6,798 nt of DNA from Candidatus Altarchaeota archaeon (GCA_030590165.1 JAUUZA010000034.1:1-6798); one strand, 5' to 3'. Positions 238 to 6,798 are shown, counted from the first letter of the stretch. Translations and numbers: made by a program. The notes: generated by a model not told the origin, from the letters alone.

Positions 238-261
238 GTATACTCTTGTGCTTGGGTATAC
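238..261 (+). promoter_or_regulatory. inverted repeat / potential hairpin enclosing the ATPase GTG start codon
   Basis: The palindrome GTATAC occurs at 238-243 and again at 256-261. The two copies can pair, and the pairing extends inward by a T-G wobble (244/255) and a C-G pair (245/254). This gives an 8-pair stem with the 8-base loop TTGTGCTT (246-253), which holds the GTG start at 248-250. The same sequence could instead be a protein-binding operator with two GTATAC sites 18 bases apart. The pairing is visible in the sequence; any regulatory role is inferred. Confidence 0.3.
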
Positions 262-1480
262 CTGCGAGGGCACGGCAGATAGAAACTATCCGATTATTGG
301 TTCTTCTGAAAAGAAACTTCTTCTTCGGTTTTTGGAGCTTTATTCAACTAAAGGGGACATTTTAGATACTTTGATAAAACAAGCCAAGAAAAAATTTGAA
401 TTTAATGAAGAGTCTATTCGTTTTTGGGCCCCAAAACTTATTGAGGGGCGTTTTGGTCCCTTTGAACCTCTTTTTTCTGAGGAGCTTGAAGAAATTATGA
501 TTAATGAAATTAATGGTTCAATTTTTGTTTATGATAGAAAAAGAGGAATGGAAAAAACAAATTTAAAGATAACTTCAAAAGAATATTTTCTTGAAATTGT
601 TAATAGAATGTTGGCTCCTCTTGGGAGACGAGTGAATCAAGCTAATCCACGAGAATCAGGAATTCTTGAAAATGGAGATAGAATTAGTGTTGCAATTCCA
701 CCATATTCACGAGAACATTCACTTTCAATTAGAAGATACGCTGCAGATTCATTTACTTTATCCGACCTCATTGAATTGGAAATGTTGACAGCTGAAGCTG
801 CTGCGTTTTTATGGGCAGTTATGGAAGCAGGAAATATTAATGTGGGTATAGTTGGAAACACCGGTTCAGGAAAGACAACATTAATGAATGCTTTAATAAC
901 TTTTTTTCCTAAAAAAAGTCGCATAGTTATTATTGAGGATATTCCTGAAATTAGACCCTTACAAGAACAGGTAGTTGGATTGATTTCAAATAAAACTTTG
1001 AAAATTTCAATGAAGGATTCAATTCTTGATTCACTTAGACTTCGTCCAGATAGAGTAATTGTTGGGGAAGTTAGGAGTAATGAAGAGGTTGAAGCCTTGA
1101 GAGAATCTTGTTTGGCGGGGCATGCACTTGGAACTTATTTTACTTATCACGCTGAAAGTTTAAAATTAGCTTATTCTCGTTTAATGAGTCAAGGATTTCC
1201 AAAATATGATTTAAGTGTGATTTCTTTGATTGTGGTTTGTAAACGATATGAGGTTAATGGAAAAACAGTAAGGCGTGTTATTGAGATAGGGGGGCAGAAA
1301 CCAATCTTTTTGATGAAAAACGGAAGACTAAAAAAGATTAATGAATTTAATTCGGAATACTTAAAAAAATCATTTGGAAATTTAGATAAAGAAATTAAGA
1401 AAAAAATAAAGTTGTTGAAGAGTTTTAGGGGAATGAAACAGAAAGAATTATTTATGAAGTTAGGGGGAAATAAAAAGTGA
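248..1480 (+). CDS. Tad/VirB11-like type IV pilus or secretion assembly ATPase (CpaF/TadA family)
   Basis: This is a cytoplasmic hexameric-type secretion ATPase expected to drive assembly of a type IV filament. Its 410 residues show the full family signature. An N-terminal domain at about 75-165 carries the FVYDRKRGMEKTN and ENGDRISVAIPP segments. Walker A is GNTGSGKT at 203-210, the Asp box is IIEDIPEI at 228-235, Walker B is PDRVIVGEV at 267-275, and the His box is GHALGTYFTYHAES at 291-304. A lysine-rich tail (about 370-410) follows the ATPase core. The GTG at 248 is the first usable start after the in-frame stop at 215-217; the next candidate, a TTG at 332, has no ribosome site. At 410 residues it is shorter than many archaeal relatives because the region before the N-domain is brief. 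Its stop overlaps the next GTG by four bases, and two T2SSF proteins follow, which favours a Tad-like pilus over a DNA-transfer VirB11 role. The cargo is not shown by the sequence. Confidence 0.93.
   Translation: MLGYTCEGTADRNYPIIGSSEKKLLLRFLELYSTKGDILDTLIKQAKKKFEFNEESIRFWAPKLIEGRFGPFEPLFSEELEEIMINEINGSIFVYDRKRGMEKTNLKITSKEYFLEIVNRMLAPLGRRVNQANPRESGILENGDRISVAIPPYSREHSLSIRRYAADSFTLSDLIELEMLTAEAAAFLWAVMEAGNINVGIVGNTGSGKTTLMNALITFFPKKSRIVIIEDIPEIRPLQEQVVGLISNKTLKISMKDSILDSLRLRPDRVIVGEVRSNEEVEALRESCLAGHALGTYFTYHAESLKLAYSRLMSQGFPKYDLSVISLIVVCKRYEVNGKTVRRVIEIGGQKPIFLMKNGRLKKINEFNSEYLKKSFGNLDKEIKKKIKLLKSFRGMKQKELFMKLGGNKK
1463..1467 (+). promoter_or_regulatory. Shine-Dalgarno-like GGGGG before the first T2SSF gene
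   Basis: GGGGG lies 9 bases before the GTG at 1477, inside the end of the ATPase gene. It can pair with the CCUCC anti-Shine-Dalgarno with one G-U wobble and supports the GTG start in the GTGA overlap. Confidence 0.45.
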
Positions 1481-2151
1481 TTTATGATTTGAATTCTCTA
1501 AATAAAATTGCAGTGAAAGCTGGAATAAAAGATGTTGAAAGGCTTTCAAAAAAATTTATTCCGACTCTTTTTCTGCCTGTTTTCTTAATAAATATAAATC
1601 TTCTTCTGGCTTTTTTGTTTTTGATATTGTTGTTGAGATTACCCTACCTTTATCTATGGTATTTATCAAAACAAAGACATAAAAAAATTAGACAACAGCT
1701 TCCTCTTTTTATTTCATCTTTGAAGTGGATGTTATCAATTCACCCAATTCAAAAAGCACTTTGTATTGTTAAATTTGGTGAGGTTTCAAAAATTTTTAAG
1801 ATATTCTGTGTAAATTATAATAAGGGTGAAGATTTTCAAAAAGCAATTAAAAAATGTGCAATTTTTCCTGAACTTGAGGAATTAATAAAACGTTTAATTG
1901 TAATTTACAATACGGGGAGTGGGGAAGAATTACTTAATCTTTATGCAGACAAGGTTTCGAGTGAAAATTTAACTCGTGCTAGAAAACTCTCTGCAAGAAT
2001 GGAGATTTTTGCTGTTGCCTACACTACGGTTGCAGCAATAATTCCTGCTATGTATTCAGGACTTACTATGAATGCAGGGGGAAGTAATGCCATTTATTTA
2101 GGGGCTTTAGCAAGTTTATTATTAGTGATATTATGGAAAGTCGTGGAATGA
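1477..2151 (+). CDS. T2SSF-domain (TadB/TadC/FlaJ-like) membrane platform protein, first copy
   Basis: This is a polytopic inner-platform protein expected to sit in the membrane above the ATPase and connect it to the growing filament. The 224-residue protein has a long hydrophobic stretch at about 28-63 (one or two helices). A cytoplasmic helical T2SSF-like domain follows at about 70-172, with RQQLPLFISSLKWML at 72-86 and the IYNTGSGEELLNLYADKV segment at 143-160 typical of the family. Two further membrane segments lie at about 176-196 and 203-222. It has only one T2SSF domain, as in TadB or TadC, whereas archaellar FlaJ-type proteins carry two and are over twice as long. It starts with GTG in a GTGA overlap with the ATPase stop, behind a GGGGG ribosome site, so its translation is probably coupled. 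Membership rests on domain pattern and neighbours rather than strong sequence motifs. Confidence 0.82.
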   Translation: MIYDLNSLNKIAVKAGIKDVERLSKKFIPTLFLPVFLININLLLAFLFLILLLRLPYLYLWYLSKQRHKKIRQQLPLFISSLKWMLSIHPIQKALCIVKFGEVSKIFKIFCVNYNKGEDFQKAIKKCAIFPELEELIKRLIVIYNTGSGEELLNLYADKVSSENLTRARKLSARMEIFAVAYTTVAAIIPAMYSGLTMNAGGSNAIYLGALASLLLVILWKVVE

Positions 2152-2774
2152 TTATTGCTTTAGGTGGGTTGGCCTTAGTTTTTCCAGAGTATGCACTCTT
2201 TTTTGTAATGGGTGCTTTGATTTTTGTAATTTTTCAGAGATGGAAAATTTCAAAGAAGAGAATAAAATCAGATGAAATGTCGGTTGAACTTTTATTCAGT
2301 TTAGGTAGTTTAAAAAATATGACTGAAGTTTCAGTTGCGAATGAAATGAAAAAATTCAATTGTTTTGAAGAATATGTTATTAAATTTGAAAAAACATCAA
2401 AACTTGATTTTCCAAATTTTGGTTGGAAAAGTTCAACAGTTGCAATGGCTATTCGTTCAGCTCTTAAAACTGGAAATCAAAAAATTCTTTCAAAAGCTCT
2501 GCAACAGATTTCTGCCAGACAGCAGTCCTTGAGTGAAACACAATCTATTATGACATCACAAAAGTATACACTTATTGCTTCAATGGCAGTTGCCTCTGCT
2601 ATATTGGGTTTGACTTCATCAATATCTGGGCAAAATTATTTGTACTATGTTATTATTCAATCTTTAATTTCTTCTCTTTGGGTCACTTTTCTTGGAAATA
2701 ATTTTTATGAAGCACTTTCACTCTCTCTACCCCTATGTTTATCTGCATATTTTCTTTCCCTTCGGTTTGTGTAA
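2148..2774 (+). CDS. second T2SSF-like membrane platform protein (TadB/TadC-like, divergent)
   Basis: This probable partner of the preceding platform protein has 208 residues from the chosen start. A hydrophobic stretch at about 1-29 is followed by a cytoplasmic helical region at about 35-135, including the ALKTGNQKILSKALQQISARQQSLSE segment split here as ALKTGNQKILSKALQQ (105-120) and ISARQQSLSE (121-130). Three closely spaced membrane helices follow at about 139-158, 163-183 and 188-206. The layout (helix, soluble helical domain, helices) is that of T2SSF proteins, but the sequence is more divergent than the first copy. I start it at the ATG at 2148, which makes an ATGA overlap with the upstream stop and has GGAAAG seven bases before it. 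An ATG at 2133 would add MESRG and create a 19-base overlap, but has no ribosome site. The pair probably forms a two-subunit platform in place of one FlaJ-like protein. Confidence 0.75.
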   Translation: MIIALGGLALVFPEYALFFVMGALIFVIFQRWKISKKRIKSDEMSVELLFSLGSLKNMTEVSVANEMKKFNCFEEYVIKFEKTSKLDFPNFGWKSSTVAMAIRSALKTGNQKILSKALQQISARQQSLSETQSIMTSQKYTLIASMAVASAILGLTSSISGQNYLYYVIIQSLISSLWVTFLGNNFYEALSLSLPLCLSAYFLSLRFV

Positions 2775-2777
2775 TCC

Positions 2778-2785
2778 TTTTATTC
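2778..2785 (+). promoter_or_regulatory. possible TATA-like element before the prepilin gene
   Basis: The 30-base gap between the second T2SSF gene and the prepilin-like gene contains TTTTATTC, centred roughly 24 bases before the ATG at 2805. It could give the subunit gene its own leaderless transcript, which would make sense because a subunit is needed in excess of motor proteins. The match to an archaeal TATA box is poor and the call is tentative. Confidence 0.2.
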
Positions 2786-2804
2786 TTGTATGTAATAGTG
2801 ATAC

Positions 2805-3047
2805 ATGCGTGGCATGACCACGGTGGAATGGCTAGTTATTGCGGCTATAGTTTTATTGGCGTCTAAGTATGTCATAGGATATTGGCAAGGAATATGGAAT
2901 CCAACAAAGGCAAAGGCTGAAGAGCTAGGGGCGTCGTTTAATGAAAGTCTTGATAACCTCAATGTTTTGAGCGAGAAACAAATTTTACCTCTGCCAAATC
3001 ACCAAGAGTTGCATTTGGAAGGTTTTTGGAAAAACTTTGGCCTGTAG
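2805..3047 (+). CDS. small prepilin-like protein with class III (type IV pilin) signal peptide
   Basis: The 80-residue protein begins MRGMTTVEWLVIAAIVLLA. A short basic leader ends in Gly3, and processing after it would put a glutamate at mature position +5, followed by a hydrophobic helix of about 20 residues. This is the hallmark of substrates of archaeal prepilin peptidases and of TadE/Flp-like pseudopilins. After cleavage a 77-residue protein remains, with a roughly 50-residue polar tail and no cysteine. Such a tail is short for a globular pilin head, so it may be a Flp-like structural pilin or a minor pseudopilin. It lies 30 bases after the second T2SSF gene, so it is the obvious candidate substrate of that machine. 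An internal ATG at 2814 would remove the leader and is rejected. Its last 89 bases are antisense to the 3' end of the aMBF1 gene. Confidence 0.72.
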   Translation: MRGMTTVEWLVIAAIVLLASKYVIGYWQGIWNPTKAKAEELGASFNESLDNLNVLSEKQILPLPNHQELHLEGFWKNFGL

Positions 3048-3441
3048 AAATTATTCCACTTAATTGAATTTCGAGAGTTTTTTCTAGTTTCTTTTTTATT
3101 TTATTGTCTGGAGTAAGTTTTCCTTTTACAACTCTTTCAACAATATTAAGTTTTTCAGAAATTTTTATTGCGAGTTCTTTTGTTGTCAATCCCTTTTTCA
3201 TCATTGCATCTTTTATTCGTTTAGCATAGTCTGGAAAAATATCCTCTTCTCTTTTTGATTGTTTAGTAAATTGTGGCGTGTATTGTGTTTTATATTGAAC
3301 TTGAGATTTTCTGGTGACTATGGGTTTTGGTATTGATACTTCCCTCCCTAATTTAGTACAATTTTCACAAACAGAAAAAAAAAGACCATCCGTCTTGATT
3401 TTTGTCACTGCTCTTTTTTCTCCGCATATTTCGCAAAGCAT
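2959..3441 (-). CDS. mbf1: archaeal multiprotein bridging factor aMBF1 (zinc ribbon plus HTH)
   Basis: aMBF1 is a widespread archaeal basal-transcription or translation-associated factor related to eukaryotic MBF1. The 160-residue protein opens with a zinc ribbon, CEIC at 3-6 and CENC at 25-28. A basic, flexible linker runs from about 35 to 66. The conserved Cro/C1-type HTH follows at about 70-127, with DYAKRIKDAMMKKGLTTKEL at 71-90 and a KGKLTPDNKIKKKLEKTLEI core at 106-125. It ends with ATLGDLAEV, resembling the LGD tail of the family, so the C-terminus looks genuine even though it overlaps the prepilin gene on the other strand. The ATG lies 11 bases after the AMMECR1 stop; only a weak AAAGAAA precedes it. 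It is the last gene of the minus-strand unit, and I see no clear oligo-T terminator after it. Length and domain order are normal. Confidence 0.92.
   Translation of the reverse strand: MLCEICGEKRAVTKIKTDGLFFSVCENCTKLGREVSIPKPIVTRKSQVQYKTQYTPQFTKQSKREEDIFPDYAKRIKDAMMKKGLTTKELAIKISEKLNIVERVVKGKLTPDNKIKKKLEKTLEIQLSGIISTGQSFSKNLPNATLGDLAEVKFVSRSKH
3078..3103 (+). terminator. possible oligo-T terminator for the pilus operon
   Basis: About 30 bases after the prepilin stop the plus strand carries a T-rich tract with runs of six (3078-3083) and six (3092-3097) T residues. Archaeal terminators are often simple oligo-T tracts without a hairpin. The tract is also the antisense of lysine codons in the aMBF1 gene, so it may be coding composition only. 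Confidence 0.25.
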
Positions 3442-3452
3442 AATTTTCTTTA

Positions 3453-3956
3453 TTATGTTTCTTTAAAAATTTGAGCGCTGAATTTCCAAATTTGTGATGT
3501 TTTCCACGCATTTTTATTTAAACCTGCCTTTTCTGAAACTGCTTCAAGAAATTCAATTATAGACATTTTCCATTCAATTGCAACCTGTGGGAGTAAAAGT
3601 CCTGAATTCAAACCTTGTTTGATAATAATTCCGTGTTTTCCAATTTCAATTTTCCTTTCTGGATTTTTTACAAGTTCAGGAGGAGTAAGTAAACTAATTT
3701 CAATTTTAATGTCTTTCATTTCGTCATGAGTTACTTTTTCAAATCTTGAATCACTTAATGTAGATATTGCCGCTAGTTTTAGATTTTTTGAAATTTTTGA
3801 TGGCTTAATTATCCCAATACACCCCCTTAATTTTTCGTGTTTCTTAAGTGTCACAAAAACTCCCGCTTCACCCTCAATTTCAGGTTCAAATTCTTTATTT
3901 TGAAAATAAGCATCAATAATTTTTCTAGTTTGATTTATAATGTCTTCATACTCCAA
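3453..3956 (-). CDS. AMMECR1-family protein
   Basis: This 167-residue protein has the AMMECR1 signature LRGCIG at 43-48, preceded by GVFVTL at 32-37 and followed by SRFEKVTHDEM (70-80), EISLLTPPE (86-94), the GLLLPQVAIEW block (119-129) and EKAGLNKNAW (142-151). The family is conserved across archaea, bacteria and eukaryotes. It has a two-subdomain alpha/beta fold and no settled biochemical activity, though the invariant RGCxG cysteine suggests a catalytic or redox role. The start is a TTG, supported by a strong GGGGGTG ribosome site seven bases before it; the next in-frame methionine is at residue 80, inside the domain. The protein is slightly shorter than common archaeal members (about 190-200 residues). 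The cysteine usually found in the segment before KAGL is a serine here (SEKAGL). It overlaps the end of the upstream surface-protein gene by 22 bases. Confidence 0.92.
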   Translation of the reverse strand: MEYEDIINQTRKIIDAYFQNKEFEPEIEGEAGVFVTLKKHEKLRGCIGIIKPSKISKNLKLAAISTLSDSRFEKVTHDEMKDIKIEISLLTPPELVKNPERKIEIGKHGIIIKQGLNSGLLLPQVAIEWKMSIIEFLEAVSEKAGLNKNAWKTSQIWKFSAQIFKET

Positions 3957-6798
3957 ATCAAAACACCCCCAATAATTAGGACGGCTAAGGATTCACTAAA
4001 GGTTATTCCAGGTGCTGTAACAAATAATTGTCCAGAGTTTGAAGCTAAAACATTCATAGTTATTTGTTCTTCCGAAGAAACATCAACACTATTTTTACTA
4101 CTTGCGAAAATTTTAACTTGGACATCAGTAAGTATTTTACCTCCATACAAGACAAGTGTTAATTTCTTTACTTCATTAGGGCCTAAGTGAACATTTACTG
4201 AAGATTCACCCTCAAGTTTTACAAAGGGTAATTGGTCTCCAGATAAACTAACAATATAATCATCTTCTATTAATTGTGGGTCTCTTATGACGACACTTGC
4301 ATAACGCATCTCACCAATATTCATAGTCACACTTGAGGGATTTATTGATAAAAAGTCATCAAGTACACAACGACTTTCTCCCTTATAATTTAATTTACAA
4401 GTCAAACCTTCCCCACAATCTCCTTCTGTACAAATTTTTCCAAGGTTGTCAGGAGCACAACTATCAGGAGAACCATTACTATCTGTATCAACACATGAAT
4501 TTCCTTCAATACAATCCGAATCACTTGAACAACAGTCAGGATCGCCTGTACCGACACCAACCTCATAACAAAGCGGGCTTGGGCAATAATAATCTAAACT
4601 GATTGTACAAATTTCACAAGTACTTGTATCTGCATTACAATAATGATTCACGCTTGTTATATTCCCAGCATCATGACAATCATTATTGACTGAACAACAA
4701 TCAGCATCAGTTCCAACGCAATTTTCACTTATACAAATTCCATTGAAATATCCTTCATCTTCACTTTCAGCACATTCAACACAGCGATTTCCAAGATAAG
4801 CACAAAATGACCCTATATTACATTGAAGGTCTGAAGCACAACACTTTGAAGATTCACAAATATCACTCCCTGAAATTGGTGAACATTCACCTTGTGCTTC
4901 TGTTATTGTTGTTATAACCTCACAACAATATTTTGTGGAATCAATTTGATTAGTTTCACAATTCTTTGAATTACACATTCGATTTTCACTACAAAGTTGA
5001 CCACTTGATATTAAAGTATTACAAGACCAAATTGTTCCATAATCAAAGTATGAAGAAGCATTAGTACACCATTCTTCATTTGAACAGGCTGAATCAGAGA
5101 CACAGCATTCATACCCAGAAGAACAACAAGCTCCATTTTCAAAGTGGGTGTCAGTAGGACAACAAACTCCATATGAACAAGTGAAATTGCTTGTATCTGT
5201 TCCCCAAGACCAACAATTTGGAGCGGCCGAAGGACAGGAAGTTGGACAATCTGAAGTTGCATCACATTGGTAACAGTTTGTATTGTCTTGTGCATTGAAT
5301 AAAAGTTCAATATCAGTTACATTTGTAAAAATAATTACAGTAGTTTCATTTGAAAGAGTTTGTTTTGTATCATTAAACATTGCTAAAGGTATTAAGGTAA
5401 GAAATTCAATTAAGTTTGATGCTCCTGCTGAAATGTAAGTTGGTGAAGAAAATTCAGTGACTGATGTGTCTCCATTAGTTATAGTCAAACCAACTAAGGC
5501 ATTAGAAATATCAATAGTTCCAATATTATTAATTGTTACATTTACACTTCCATCCGTTCCAACTTTAATATTATCAGAAATTGAACTGCTTGATGCTAAA
5601 TAATTTAAATTAACTACTTCTTGTTCACAGCCAGTTGGAGGTCCACTTCCTGATGAACCACATGAACAAGTTAAAGTAACATTATTCACTCCTTGAGTGA
5701 ATATATTTTCTAAAGAAATATAATTTACACCACCATTTGCCGAAACTATATTATTTGTTTGAGTATAAATTGAAGCTAAATTTTCATCAAATATTTCAAC
5801 AGTGCAGTTTGCTTGTGTTTCACAAAGACAATCAATACTTACATTTACAAAAGAAAGTGAACTATTTCCAAACCAAGAAACATCTTTGTAAATATCTAAA
5901 CAACTTCCTCCGCCTTTAATACATTCACCTTTATTGTTGATGTATTCTCGAGTCCCCGTGTTTCCATCAGAGTCACATGGAGTTGCACAAGCTAATTGTG
6001 GGTGGGTTGTATTGCACGACCCTTCTGAAAAACTGTAGACACCGGCAGTTTCAGAGAAGAAACCACAACTTCCCTTATATGTTGAATTTCCCATACAAGA
6101 GCAGTTTGAAGCCGTATCACAAGCGTAATTTGAACATTCAGACCAAATTCCTGAGTTACATGAATCAATATCACCATCTAAATCAGAGTCTAAATTAGTT
6201 GTTCCTGATGGAATACAATTATCAGTTATACCGTCCCCATCAGTATCGTGTGGACAAGCAAGTGATTCACAACAAATTCCTGCAAAATTACCTCCATTTT
6301 GAGTATCACTTGGATTTGTTGTGTCATTGAAATAAATTATTTCTTTTGATAAAATATTATAACTTTCACAGTTGGATGTTGAACAAACACTGTCAATATA
6401 ACAACCAGTTTTTTTTCCCTTTAAACAAGCACAATCAAAATTACCCGCCCCACATTCAATTGAAGTACAATCAAGGTCATAGCTTGAAGTACATAAATAA
6501 TTTTTAGAATCATCTACAATAGTTGCTGAAGCATCACAATAAGACCTACAATCTGTTGAAATTCCTAGTGAACAGTTTGTAACCTTGCCACTTGGTGATG
6601 TAAAACACCAAGTTCCAGTATCTTGAGGACTACAACAATTTTTTTCTTCACCTTCTAAATTATTTTGATCTGTCCAAATACCATTCATTTGTTCACAGGC
6701 AGTTTCACAAGAATCCGTCATATCTGAAGTGAGACTCCAAGTTCCAGTATAATTATCACAAAATTTATCGTAGTAATTATCATTGTCAATATCTACTG
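3935..6798 (-). CDS. large cysteine-rich, Ca-motif-rich secreted surface protein (N-terminus beyond right edge)
   Basis: The frame is open from the right edge to the TAA at 3937-3935, so at least 953 C-terminal residues are seen; the ATG at 6721 is internal. Numbering from that Met, about 84 cysteines (roughly 9%) all lie before residue 786, and none fall in two cysteine-free beta-rich blocks. In order: a cysteine-rich region (5-365) with aspartate repeats like DTDGDGITDNC (159-169); a CARDB-like block (about 371-475); a second cysteine-rich region (483-785) with four CC-x5-C modules; an Ig-like beta block (about 790-895); and a hydrophobic helix (908-925) with a three-residue tail. There are around 16 N-x-S/T sequons. 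This is the pattern of a disulfide-stabilised, probably glycosylated, C-terminally anchored cell-surface protein. A role in adhesion or cell contact is inference. It heads the AMMECR1-aMBF1 unit, and its end overlaps AMMECR1 by 22 bases. Confidence 0.85.
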   Translation of the reverse strand, partial: VDIDNDNYYDKFCDNYTGTWSLTSDMTDSCETACEQMNGIWTDQNNLEGEEKNCCSPQDTGTWCFTSPSGKVTNCSLGISTDCRSYCDASATIVDDSKNYLCTSSYDLDCTSIECGAGNFDCACLKGKKTGCYIDSVCSTSNCESYNILSKEIIYFNDTTNPSDTQNGGNFAGICCESLACPHDTDGDGITDNCIPSGTTNLDSDLDGDIDSCNSGIWSECSNYACDTASNCSCMGNSTYKGSCGFFSETAGVYSFSEGSCNTTHPQLACATPCDSDGNTGTREYINNKGECIKGGGSCLDIYKDVSWFGNSSLSFVNVSIDCLCETQANCTVEIFDENLASIYTQTNNIVSANGGVNYISLENIFTQGVNNVTLTCSCGSSGSGPPTGCEQEVVNLNYLASSSSISDNIKVGTDGSVNVTINNIGTIDISNALVGLTITNGDTSVTEFSSPTYISAGASNLIEFLTLIPLAMFNDTKQTLSNETTVIIFTNVTDIELLFNAQDNTNCYQCDATSDCPTSCPSAAPNCWSWGTDTSNFTCSYGVCCPTDTHFENGACCSSGYECCVSDSACSNEEWCTNASSYFDYGTIWSCNTLISSGQLCSENRMCNSKNCETNQIDSTKYCCEVITTITEAQGECSPISGSDICESSKCCASDLQCNIGSFCAYLGNRCVECAESEDEGYFNGICISENCVGTDADCCSVNNDCHDAGNITSVNHYCNADTSTCEICTISLDYYCPSPLCYEVGVGTGDPDCCSSDSDCIEGNSCVDTDSNGSPDSCAPDNLGKICTEGDCGEGLTCKLNYKGESRCVLDDFLSINPSSVTMNIGEMRYASVVIRDPQLIEDDYIVSLSGDQLPFVKLEGESSVNVHLGPNEVKKLTLVLYGGKILTDVQVKIFASSKNSVDVSSEEQITMNVLASNSGQLFVTAPGITFSESLAVLIIGGVLIWSMKTL
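3964..3970 (-). promoter_or_regulatory. Shine-Dalgarno sequence that fixes the AMMECR1 TTG start
   Basis: On the minus strand GGGGGTG lies seven bases before the TTG at 3956-3954. It matches GGAGGTG with A replaced by G, so one pair becomes G-U. It sits inside the 3' end of the cysteine-rich protein gene and is the main reason for accepting the TTG. Confidence 0.6.
4457..5107 (-). repeat. four CC-x5-C(-x5-C) cysteine modules in the surface protein
   Basis: Modules start at residues 539 (CCVSDSACSNEEWC), 627 (CCASDLQCNIGSFC), 675 (CCSVNNDC, with the next cysteine 13 residues on) and 730 (CCSSDSDCIEGNSC). Three follow CC-x5-C-x5-C exactly, and the third carries an insertion before its last cysteine. 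The C-x-x-D-x-x-C-x-x-G-x-x-C flavour resembles small disulfide knots in animal secreted proteins such as Dickkopf, and also some bacterial surface proteins. Relatedness to those is not implied by this short pattern. Confidence 0.6.
6158..6247 (-). repeat. tandem DxDxDG calcium-binding-like repeats in the surface protein
   Basis: Residues 159-169 (DTDGDGITDNC) and 177-188 (LDSDLDGDIDSC) follow the D-x-D-x-D-G...D-x-C pattern of thrombospondin type 3 and related calcium-binding repeats. Related copies lie at residues 745-755 (DTDSNGSPDSC; 4457-4489) and at the right edge (DIDNDNYYDKFC; 6758-6793). The aspartate spacing is visible; calcium binding is inferred from the family. Confidence 0.6.

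Follow-up and report, generated by a model that had tools for sequence, protein, structure and literature searches.

A phylum-conserved four-gene module in Candidatus Altarchaeota, probably for assembly of a reduced Tad/Epd-like type IV filament

With how few genes can a type IV filament machine be built, and to which of the known machines would such a small set belong? The question is raised by a locus of four plus-strand genes in Candidatus Altarchaeota archaeon, which lies on a complete contig of 6,798 bases (GCA_030590165.1 JAUUZA010000034.1:1-6798; the window, in what follows) from a genome of 724 kb in 64 contigs, 87.6% complete. A preliminary description of this DNA had reported four plus-strand open reading frames (ORFs) here, namely, a secretion ATPase, two platform proteins and an 80-residue prepilin, and all four were found as described. 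In our reading, to which we give a probability of about 0.8, they make up a reduced assembly module for a type IV filament of the Epd/Tad (type IVc pilus, T4cP) kind. Such a module is a reduced form of the Tad/Epd pili already described and not a new type of machine. The features concerned, with the evidence for each, are as follows.

248-1480, plus strand: TadA/CpaF/FlaI-type secretion ATPase of 410 residues with a short N-terminal domain (T2SSE, TIGR03819, CpaF profile match, motifs)
1477-2151, plus strand: platform protein 1, 224 residues, matching the N-terminal half of a FlaJ/PilC-type platform (T2SSF, fold, hhalign)
2133-2774, plus strand: platform protein 2, 213 residues, predicted C-terminal half of a FlaJ/PilC-type platform (profile comparison)
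2805-3047, plus strand: Flp-like prepilin, 80 residues, with a conserved core of residues 1-52 (2805-2960) and a variable tail (alignment of eight homologues)
2772-2785, plus strand: AT-rich box, possible TATA box of a leaderless promoter (position-specific AT peak)

The four genes are kept together. When 60 other genomes were searched for the ATPase, five of the six other members of the family proved to have a close copy (54-60% identity), and two more genomes of the class a copy at 46-50% identity. All seven relatives with an ATPase copy show the same succession of ATPase, platform 1, platform 2 and small prepilin, so that within our phylum sample of ten genomes the block occurs, always in this order, in eight, namely, the source genome, five family members, and genomes G008 and G009. 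Neither of the two outcomes named in the preliminary description as refuting it, membrane proteins without any T2SSF match or a block dispersed in related genomes, was observed. When related loci were sought with a single ATPase sequence no match was obtained, whereas an alignment used as query did find relatives. A profile of the prepilin likewise found exactly one copy per genome in eight of the ten. As this profile was built from the very copies that it finds, an independent measure was taken from BLASTP with only the 80-mer of the window as query, which matches its seven relatives at 2e-29 to 2e-11. The module was not found in G006, a genome of the same genus as G005, but the syntenic AMMECR1 gene is absent there too, and an assembly gap is therefore more likely than loss of the module. 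Beyond the phylum, neither a search of 12 sister-clade genomes for the same prepilin nor a scan for leaders, under relaxed criteria, in the surroundings of their ATPase modules gave anything convincing, which makes the prepilin linkage specific to this phylum, as sampled.

The junctions between the genes are conserved as well. The preliminary description had the genes joined by 4-base overlaps, which is correct for the ATPase and platform 1 (1477-1480), but platform 1 and platform 2 share a conserved 19-base overlap, with platform 2 starting at the ATG at 2133. This start position is kept in relatives, where M1 is invariant, 'ME' is found in five of six, and G002 has a TTG start; the alternative ATG at 2148, which would leave a 4-base overlap, was rejected, as it is not a conserved start. 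The gap of 30 bases ahead of the prepilin, on which the coordinates agree with the earlier account, measures 23-30 bases across six family members. Rfam gave no match.

Around the block, the window contains four other genes.

1-222: 3' end of a type II methionyl aminopeptidase gene
2959-3441, minus strand: MBF1
3453-3956, minus strand: AMMECR1
3935-6796, minus strand: Cys-rich surface protein

The neighborhood of MBF1, AMMECR1 and the Cys-rich gene is largely shared by the six family genomes, G002 lacking MBF1 between prepilin and AMMECR1. In G008 and G009, however, the flanking genes are different and the four-gene block is intact, and this persistence of the block while its flanks change argues for a functional unit. 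As an aside, the Cys-rich surface protein (also at L082:4167-7745 and L086:10665-15197) contains about 9-10% Cys and a C-terminal membrane anchor, and matches no Pfam family above cut-off; its gene, which overlaps AMMECR1 by 22 bases and is syntenic in the family, encodes 1193 residues where complete in G005 and more than 1900 in G004.

The first gene encodes the TadA/CpaF-type secretion ATPase that is expected of Epd/Tad-like filaments. It matches T2SSE in Pfam (3.4e-29), and its best NCBIfam model is TIGR03819, that of TadA, at 8.3e-42, a score still under the cut-off of the model. The Walker A GNTGSGKTT, GEVR and GTYFTYHAES motifs are conserved in an alignment of eight relatives. Against the PDB, the family profile scores highest with CpaF (181 bits), followed by an archaeal GspE (160 bits) and FlaI (147 bits), with VirB11 reaching up to 89 bits and the bacterial GspE, PilB and PilT chains remaining under 40. 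A maximum-likelihood tree was made of 34 ATPase domains, drawn from the phylum and from archaea elsewhere; it groups the eight prepilin-linked ATPases in a single clade (support 100/100), sister to the ATPases of six other small archaeal genomes (joint group, 99/95), whose loci encode two platform genes, fused in one case, and a PAC2 protein. The filament ATPases of two other systems of the source genome, at C60 and C53, fall outside this joint group.

Two side observations concern these ATPase relatives. Some sister-group ATPases carry N-terminal Cys-rich ferredoxin-like motifs (L049:4925-6550 in G039, where Pfam recognizes 4Fe-4S domains, and L047:6533-8224 in G017, where the motifs were assigned by eye); being odd for a pilus motor, they hint at redox control. 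In addition, each of the six sister loci (L047, L048, L049, L050, L051, L052) has a gene for a PAC2-family protein close to its ATPase/platform module, and such a gene also adjoins the second, C60-type system of the family (L007:335-1012, L043:2121-2795). PAC2 was called by Pfam for L049, L007 and L043, and by a sequence motif for the remainder.

The next two genes were said in the preliminary description to encode T2SSF-like membrane proteins, and this is upheld by different means for each. Platform 1 matches T2SSF at 1.9e-4, under the Pfam cut-off, and its AlphaFold2 model (predicted local distance difference test score, pLDDT, of 83) has as top PDB matches the PilC N-domain, OutF, EpsF, SpoIIIAB and TcpE. 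Foldseek gave a probability of 1.00 for PilC/OutF/EpsF, and VIA a Z of 10.4 with a root-mean-square deviation of 2.5 over 98 residues versus PilC; in its predicted structure, platform 1 folds like the PilC/EpsF cytoplasmic domain. Platform 2 alone matches no Pfam family, and NCBIfam returned nothing useful. When its profile was compared with that of homologues, several of which have significant Pfam T2SSF matches, hhalign gave 98.1% and 7.4e-14. Moreover, both proteins could be placed on a fused homologue, since at L048:8472-10178 of G057, in the sister group, the two platform halves occur in one gene of 569 residues. In hhalign comparisons with this protein, platform 1 matches the N half best (6.9e-13; C half, 2.5e-7), and platform 2 the C half (9.9e-11), with no match to the N half. 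In terms of sequence profile, then, platform 2 appears to correspond to the C-terminal part of a platform split in two. The profiles of platforms 1 and 2 show no direct similarity to each other in hhalign, and the AlphaFold2 model of platform 2 (pLDDT 86) has a helix order that resembles that of platform 1.

Two adjacent single-T2SSF genes, one for each half (N and C) of FlaJ/PilC, are accordingly present, the second as judged by profile only. Their mapping onto the halves of a fused homologue matches the fission described for the Tad/Epd clade, and the nesting of the fused G057 gene among split-platform relatives points to fusion or fission within this group. The earlier view that two short platform genes are unusual for archaea did not survive: the split into two platform genes is already known from the Epd/Tad clade (Denise et al., 2019; PMC6668835), and two tadC genes are reported for Clade 1 as well as for many euryarchaeal loci of Clade 2 (Makarova et al., 2016; PMC4858521).

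The fourth gene supplies the candidate filament subunit. Its leader, MRG, precedes a predicted cleavage site followed by MTTVEWLVIAAIVLL, so that the N-terminus reads M-R-G, site, M-T-T-V-E-W-L-V-I-A-A-I-V-L-L, and judged by sequence this leader is of the class III/Flp type. Residues E8, W9, I12, I15, V23 and W31 are invariant among the eight homologues, E8 and W9 being Glu+5 and Trp+6 of the mature chain, and the residue preceding the cleavage site is Gly, Ala or Ser in the eight genomes. The signature of a short Flp/class III prepilin, with a single helix, Glu+5, an aromatic residue at +6 and a Gly/Ala/Ser site, is therefore found in eight of eight sequences. The prepilins of G009 and G008, with 53 and 60 residues, both leave 50 residues after the predicted cleavage site. 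Differences in the pilin core fall mostly at third codon positions (8/7/31 at first, second and third positions versus the nearest relative; 16/13/33 and 16/14/30 versus others). The last third of the gene (2959-3047), which is antisense to the convergent MBF1 gene, is not conserved, and the conserved pilin thus amounts to about 52 residues. Consistent with this, the tail beyond residue ~55 is variable among the six family genomes. In all six, the 3' end of the prepilin gene is antisense to a convergent gene by 55-110 bases (MBF1, or AMMECR1 in G002; L082-L086), and the tail is therefore probably shaped by the opposite strand. Upstream, an AT peak at -33 to -20 before the prepilin start across the eight genomes (circular-shift p 0.019; p 0.003 upon post hoc exclusion of G009, whose prepilin gene overlaps the preceding gene), with a box of this kind in most of them, is no more than suggestive of a leaderless promoter belonging to the pilin itself. 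General searches of Pfam and NCBIfam with the prepilin returned nothing useful, and its profile gave only chance matches against the PDB.

Among known systems, the closest likeness is with the Epd pili of Methanococcus maripaludis and the Epd-like archaeal pili of Clade 1, which are adhesive and share with the module one VirB11-type ATPase, two adjacent single-T2SSF platform genes and short class III prepilins (PMC6668835, PMC4858521). The Epd loci, however, are complex: besides a peptidase and an ATPase of FlaH or MinD type, they encode putative adhesins and five or more additional class III proteins, whereas here there are only four genes. With the bacterial Tad or type IVc pilus (CpaF-TadB-TadC-Flp) the module has in common a CpaF-like ATPase and a split platform, and its predicted pilin resembles Flp in being a single helix of ~45-50 residues with Glu+5 and an aromatic residue at +6; in the Caulobacter Tad pilin, of 45 mature residues, Glu+5 and Tyr+6 make core hydrogen bonds (PMC11067988). 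In contrast to bacterial Tad, the module occurs in an archaeal host, at a locus without secretin, TadZ, TadE/F, TadV or RcpC, and its prepilin is missed by Flp_Fap. A bacterial Tad pilus in the strict sense was consequently rejected, as none of the eight loci, by listing of ORFs, has the full gene set. The TadABC clusters of DPANN archaea (Undinarchaeota, Nanohaloarchaeota 'Nucleotidisoterales') likewise combine TadA, TadB and TadC with a small archaeal genome, but they contain no annotated pilin, whereas here the operon itself includes a pilin gene, which is conserved throughout the phylum; the report on Nanohaloarchaeota, which also cites Undinarchaeota, suggested that the missing pilin genes may be small and poorly conserved (PMC9563170). 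Finally, archaella and other FlaI-FlaJ pili have a homologous ATPase and platform, but an archaellum is built with a single long FlaJ, with FlaH and with several archaellins, instead of a split platform and a tiny pilin. An archaellum was rejected given the two split platforms and the lack of FlaH and archaellins at the locus, and type II secretion or a type IVa pilus given the scores of GspE, PilB and PilT noted above as against that of CpaF.

The preliminary description also proposed a streamlined archaeal Tad-like set with no visible accessory genes. The set itself is confirmed, with an ATPase closest to CpaF, platform halves, its own prepilin and no accessory gene in the operon. Beside the module, a listing of ORFs showed no TadZ, secretin RcpA, TadE/F or TadV at any of the eight loci, TadZ and FlaH having been sought at the loci and not genome-wide. 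The absence of accessory genes does not extend to the cell, which has a candidate peptidase and two type IV filament systems besides this one. The former, the only peptidase candidate found in the source genome, is a putative A24-like prepilin peptidase at G000:C37:26706-27044 (26.5 bits, just at the PF01478 cut-off) within an ORF of 249 residues that has six predicted transmembrane segments and two plausible catalytic Asp residues, in GVDFMTTYLPEN and ASGDMWLMA. Of the two systems, that at G000:C60 comprises an ATPase of 721 residues, two strong full-size T2SSF platforms (291 and 366 residues), at least one KGQASPDF-type prepilin and further leader-bearing proteins, and that at G000:C53 an ATPase of 741 residues, a platform-like protein of 643 residues and small membrane proteins. 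Sharing of parts with these systems is thus possible.

Several results weigh against a Tad/Epd-like filament module. The model of platform 2 found no T2SSF structural match with Foldseek and VIA, only a helical-bundle background; since the solved platform structures seen were of cytoplasmic domains, with no full-length platform membrane domain among them, this does not count as evidence against its assignment. The prepilin matches neither Flp_Fap (PF04964) nor Class_IIIsignal (PF04021), at this locus in any genome searched, which says little, since both are short models, each above cut-off in only 1 of 14 control genomes; recognition by these models is a practical marker of the class more than part of its definition. 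In NCBIfam, the class homologue of the ATPase in G009 is nearer FlaI than TadA. The locus has no TadZ/FlaH, minor pilin or peptidase gene, and the C37 peptidase ORF gave no match when run with hmmscan against Pfam and NCBIfam, with no subtype (EppA or TadV) assigned.

How, then, do other explanations fare? That the 80-residue ORF arose by chance, or encodes a small membrane protein of an unrelated kind, may seem to be favored by its lack of a Pfam family and by its 3' third being antisense to MBF1. Yet each of the eight loci has a homologue in the corresponding position, with invariant E+5/W+6 and divergence biased toward third codon positions, which refutes the chance form outright and leaves the explanation as a whole exceedingly improbable. 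A better, though still unlikely, candidate is a machine for secretion or uptake, in which a short pseudopilus would carry proteins or DNA through the membrane, in the manner of the type II secretion system (T2SS) or of competence systems, and no external filament would be made. This would suit a single small prepilin and an operon without an adhesin, and the large Cys-rich membrane-anchored surface protein encoded convergently nearby in the family genomes might be its client; that gene, however, is absent from the neighborhoods of G008 and G009, minor pseudopilins of T2SS and GspLM-like parts are absent at the locus, and a Tad-type ATPase with Flp geometry is typical of pilus makers.

More difficult to separate from a Tad/Epd-like module, with which it overlaps, is an auxiliary one that makes a filament only with parts, such as minor pilins or a FlaH-like ATPase, of the other two type IV systems of the genome, the difference being one of dependence. 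The C60 and C53 systems are encoded in the same genome, which has a single peptidase candidate, and Makarova et al. (2016; PMC4858521) have argued that ATPase/TadC modules use pilins in trans. Other filament systems in the relatives were covered by a partial check, through ATPases and T2SSF matches. Nevertheless, the module has its own pilin, its four genes stay together, and its ATPase lineage is far from those of C60 and C53; we hold such dependence to be a substantial possibility, somewhat short of an even chance.

In a reduced Tad/Epd-like module, the 80-residue prepilin would be inserted into the membrane and cut after Gly3 by a class-III-type prepilin peptidase encoded elsewhere, for which G000:C37 is the candidate, leaving a single amphipathic helix that begins M-T-T-V-E-W. 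The two half-platforms would jointly be the equivalent of one FlaJ/PilC platform, driven by a hexameric ATPase so as to push pilins singly into a thin helical filament, which may be held by Glu+5 and the aromatic residue at +6, as in the Caulobacter Tad pilus. Its likely use would be attachment to surfaces or to partner cells. These steps, from cleavage and polymerization to adhesion, together with any retraction of the filament, are proposed by analogy with the family.

Two-platform archaeal pili, class III pilins and small type IV pilus (T4P) sets were already known, the last in the shape of an ancestral plan with four components and of loci with three (Makarova et al., 2016; PMC4858521). 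What is new is a phylum-conserved four-gene form, with platforms of 205-243 residues in the family members and its own pilin of ~50 residues, in a DPANN-like setting; in a partial coverage of the literature we found no paper describing this set. It is tempting to speculate, although we consider it rather doubtful, that it represents a nearly self-sufficient pilus of four genes plus a shared peptidase, that is, a functional Tad-like filament made by one ATPase, a split platform and a single pilin, and dispensing with minor pilins, with TadZ/FlaH and with a tip adhesin. This could be the smallest type IV filament machine, by which DPANN-like archaea might hold on to host cells. With a clear candidate subunit, whose gene belongs to the operon and is kept throughout the phylum, the filament of such Tad clusters becomes testable through one small protein, and, should the set prove able to work by itself, it would also mark the minimal requirements of a type IV filament machine.

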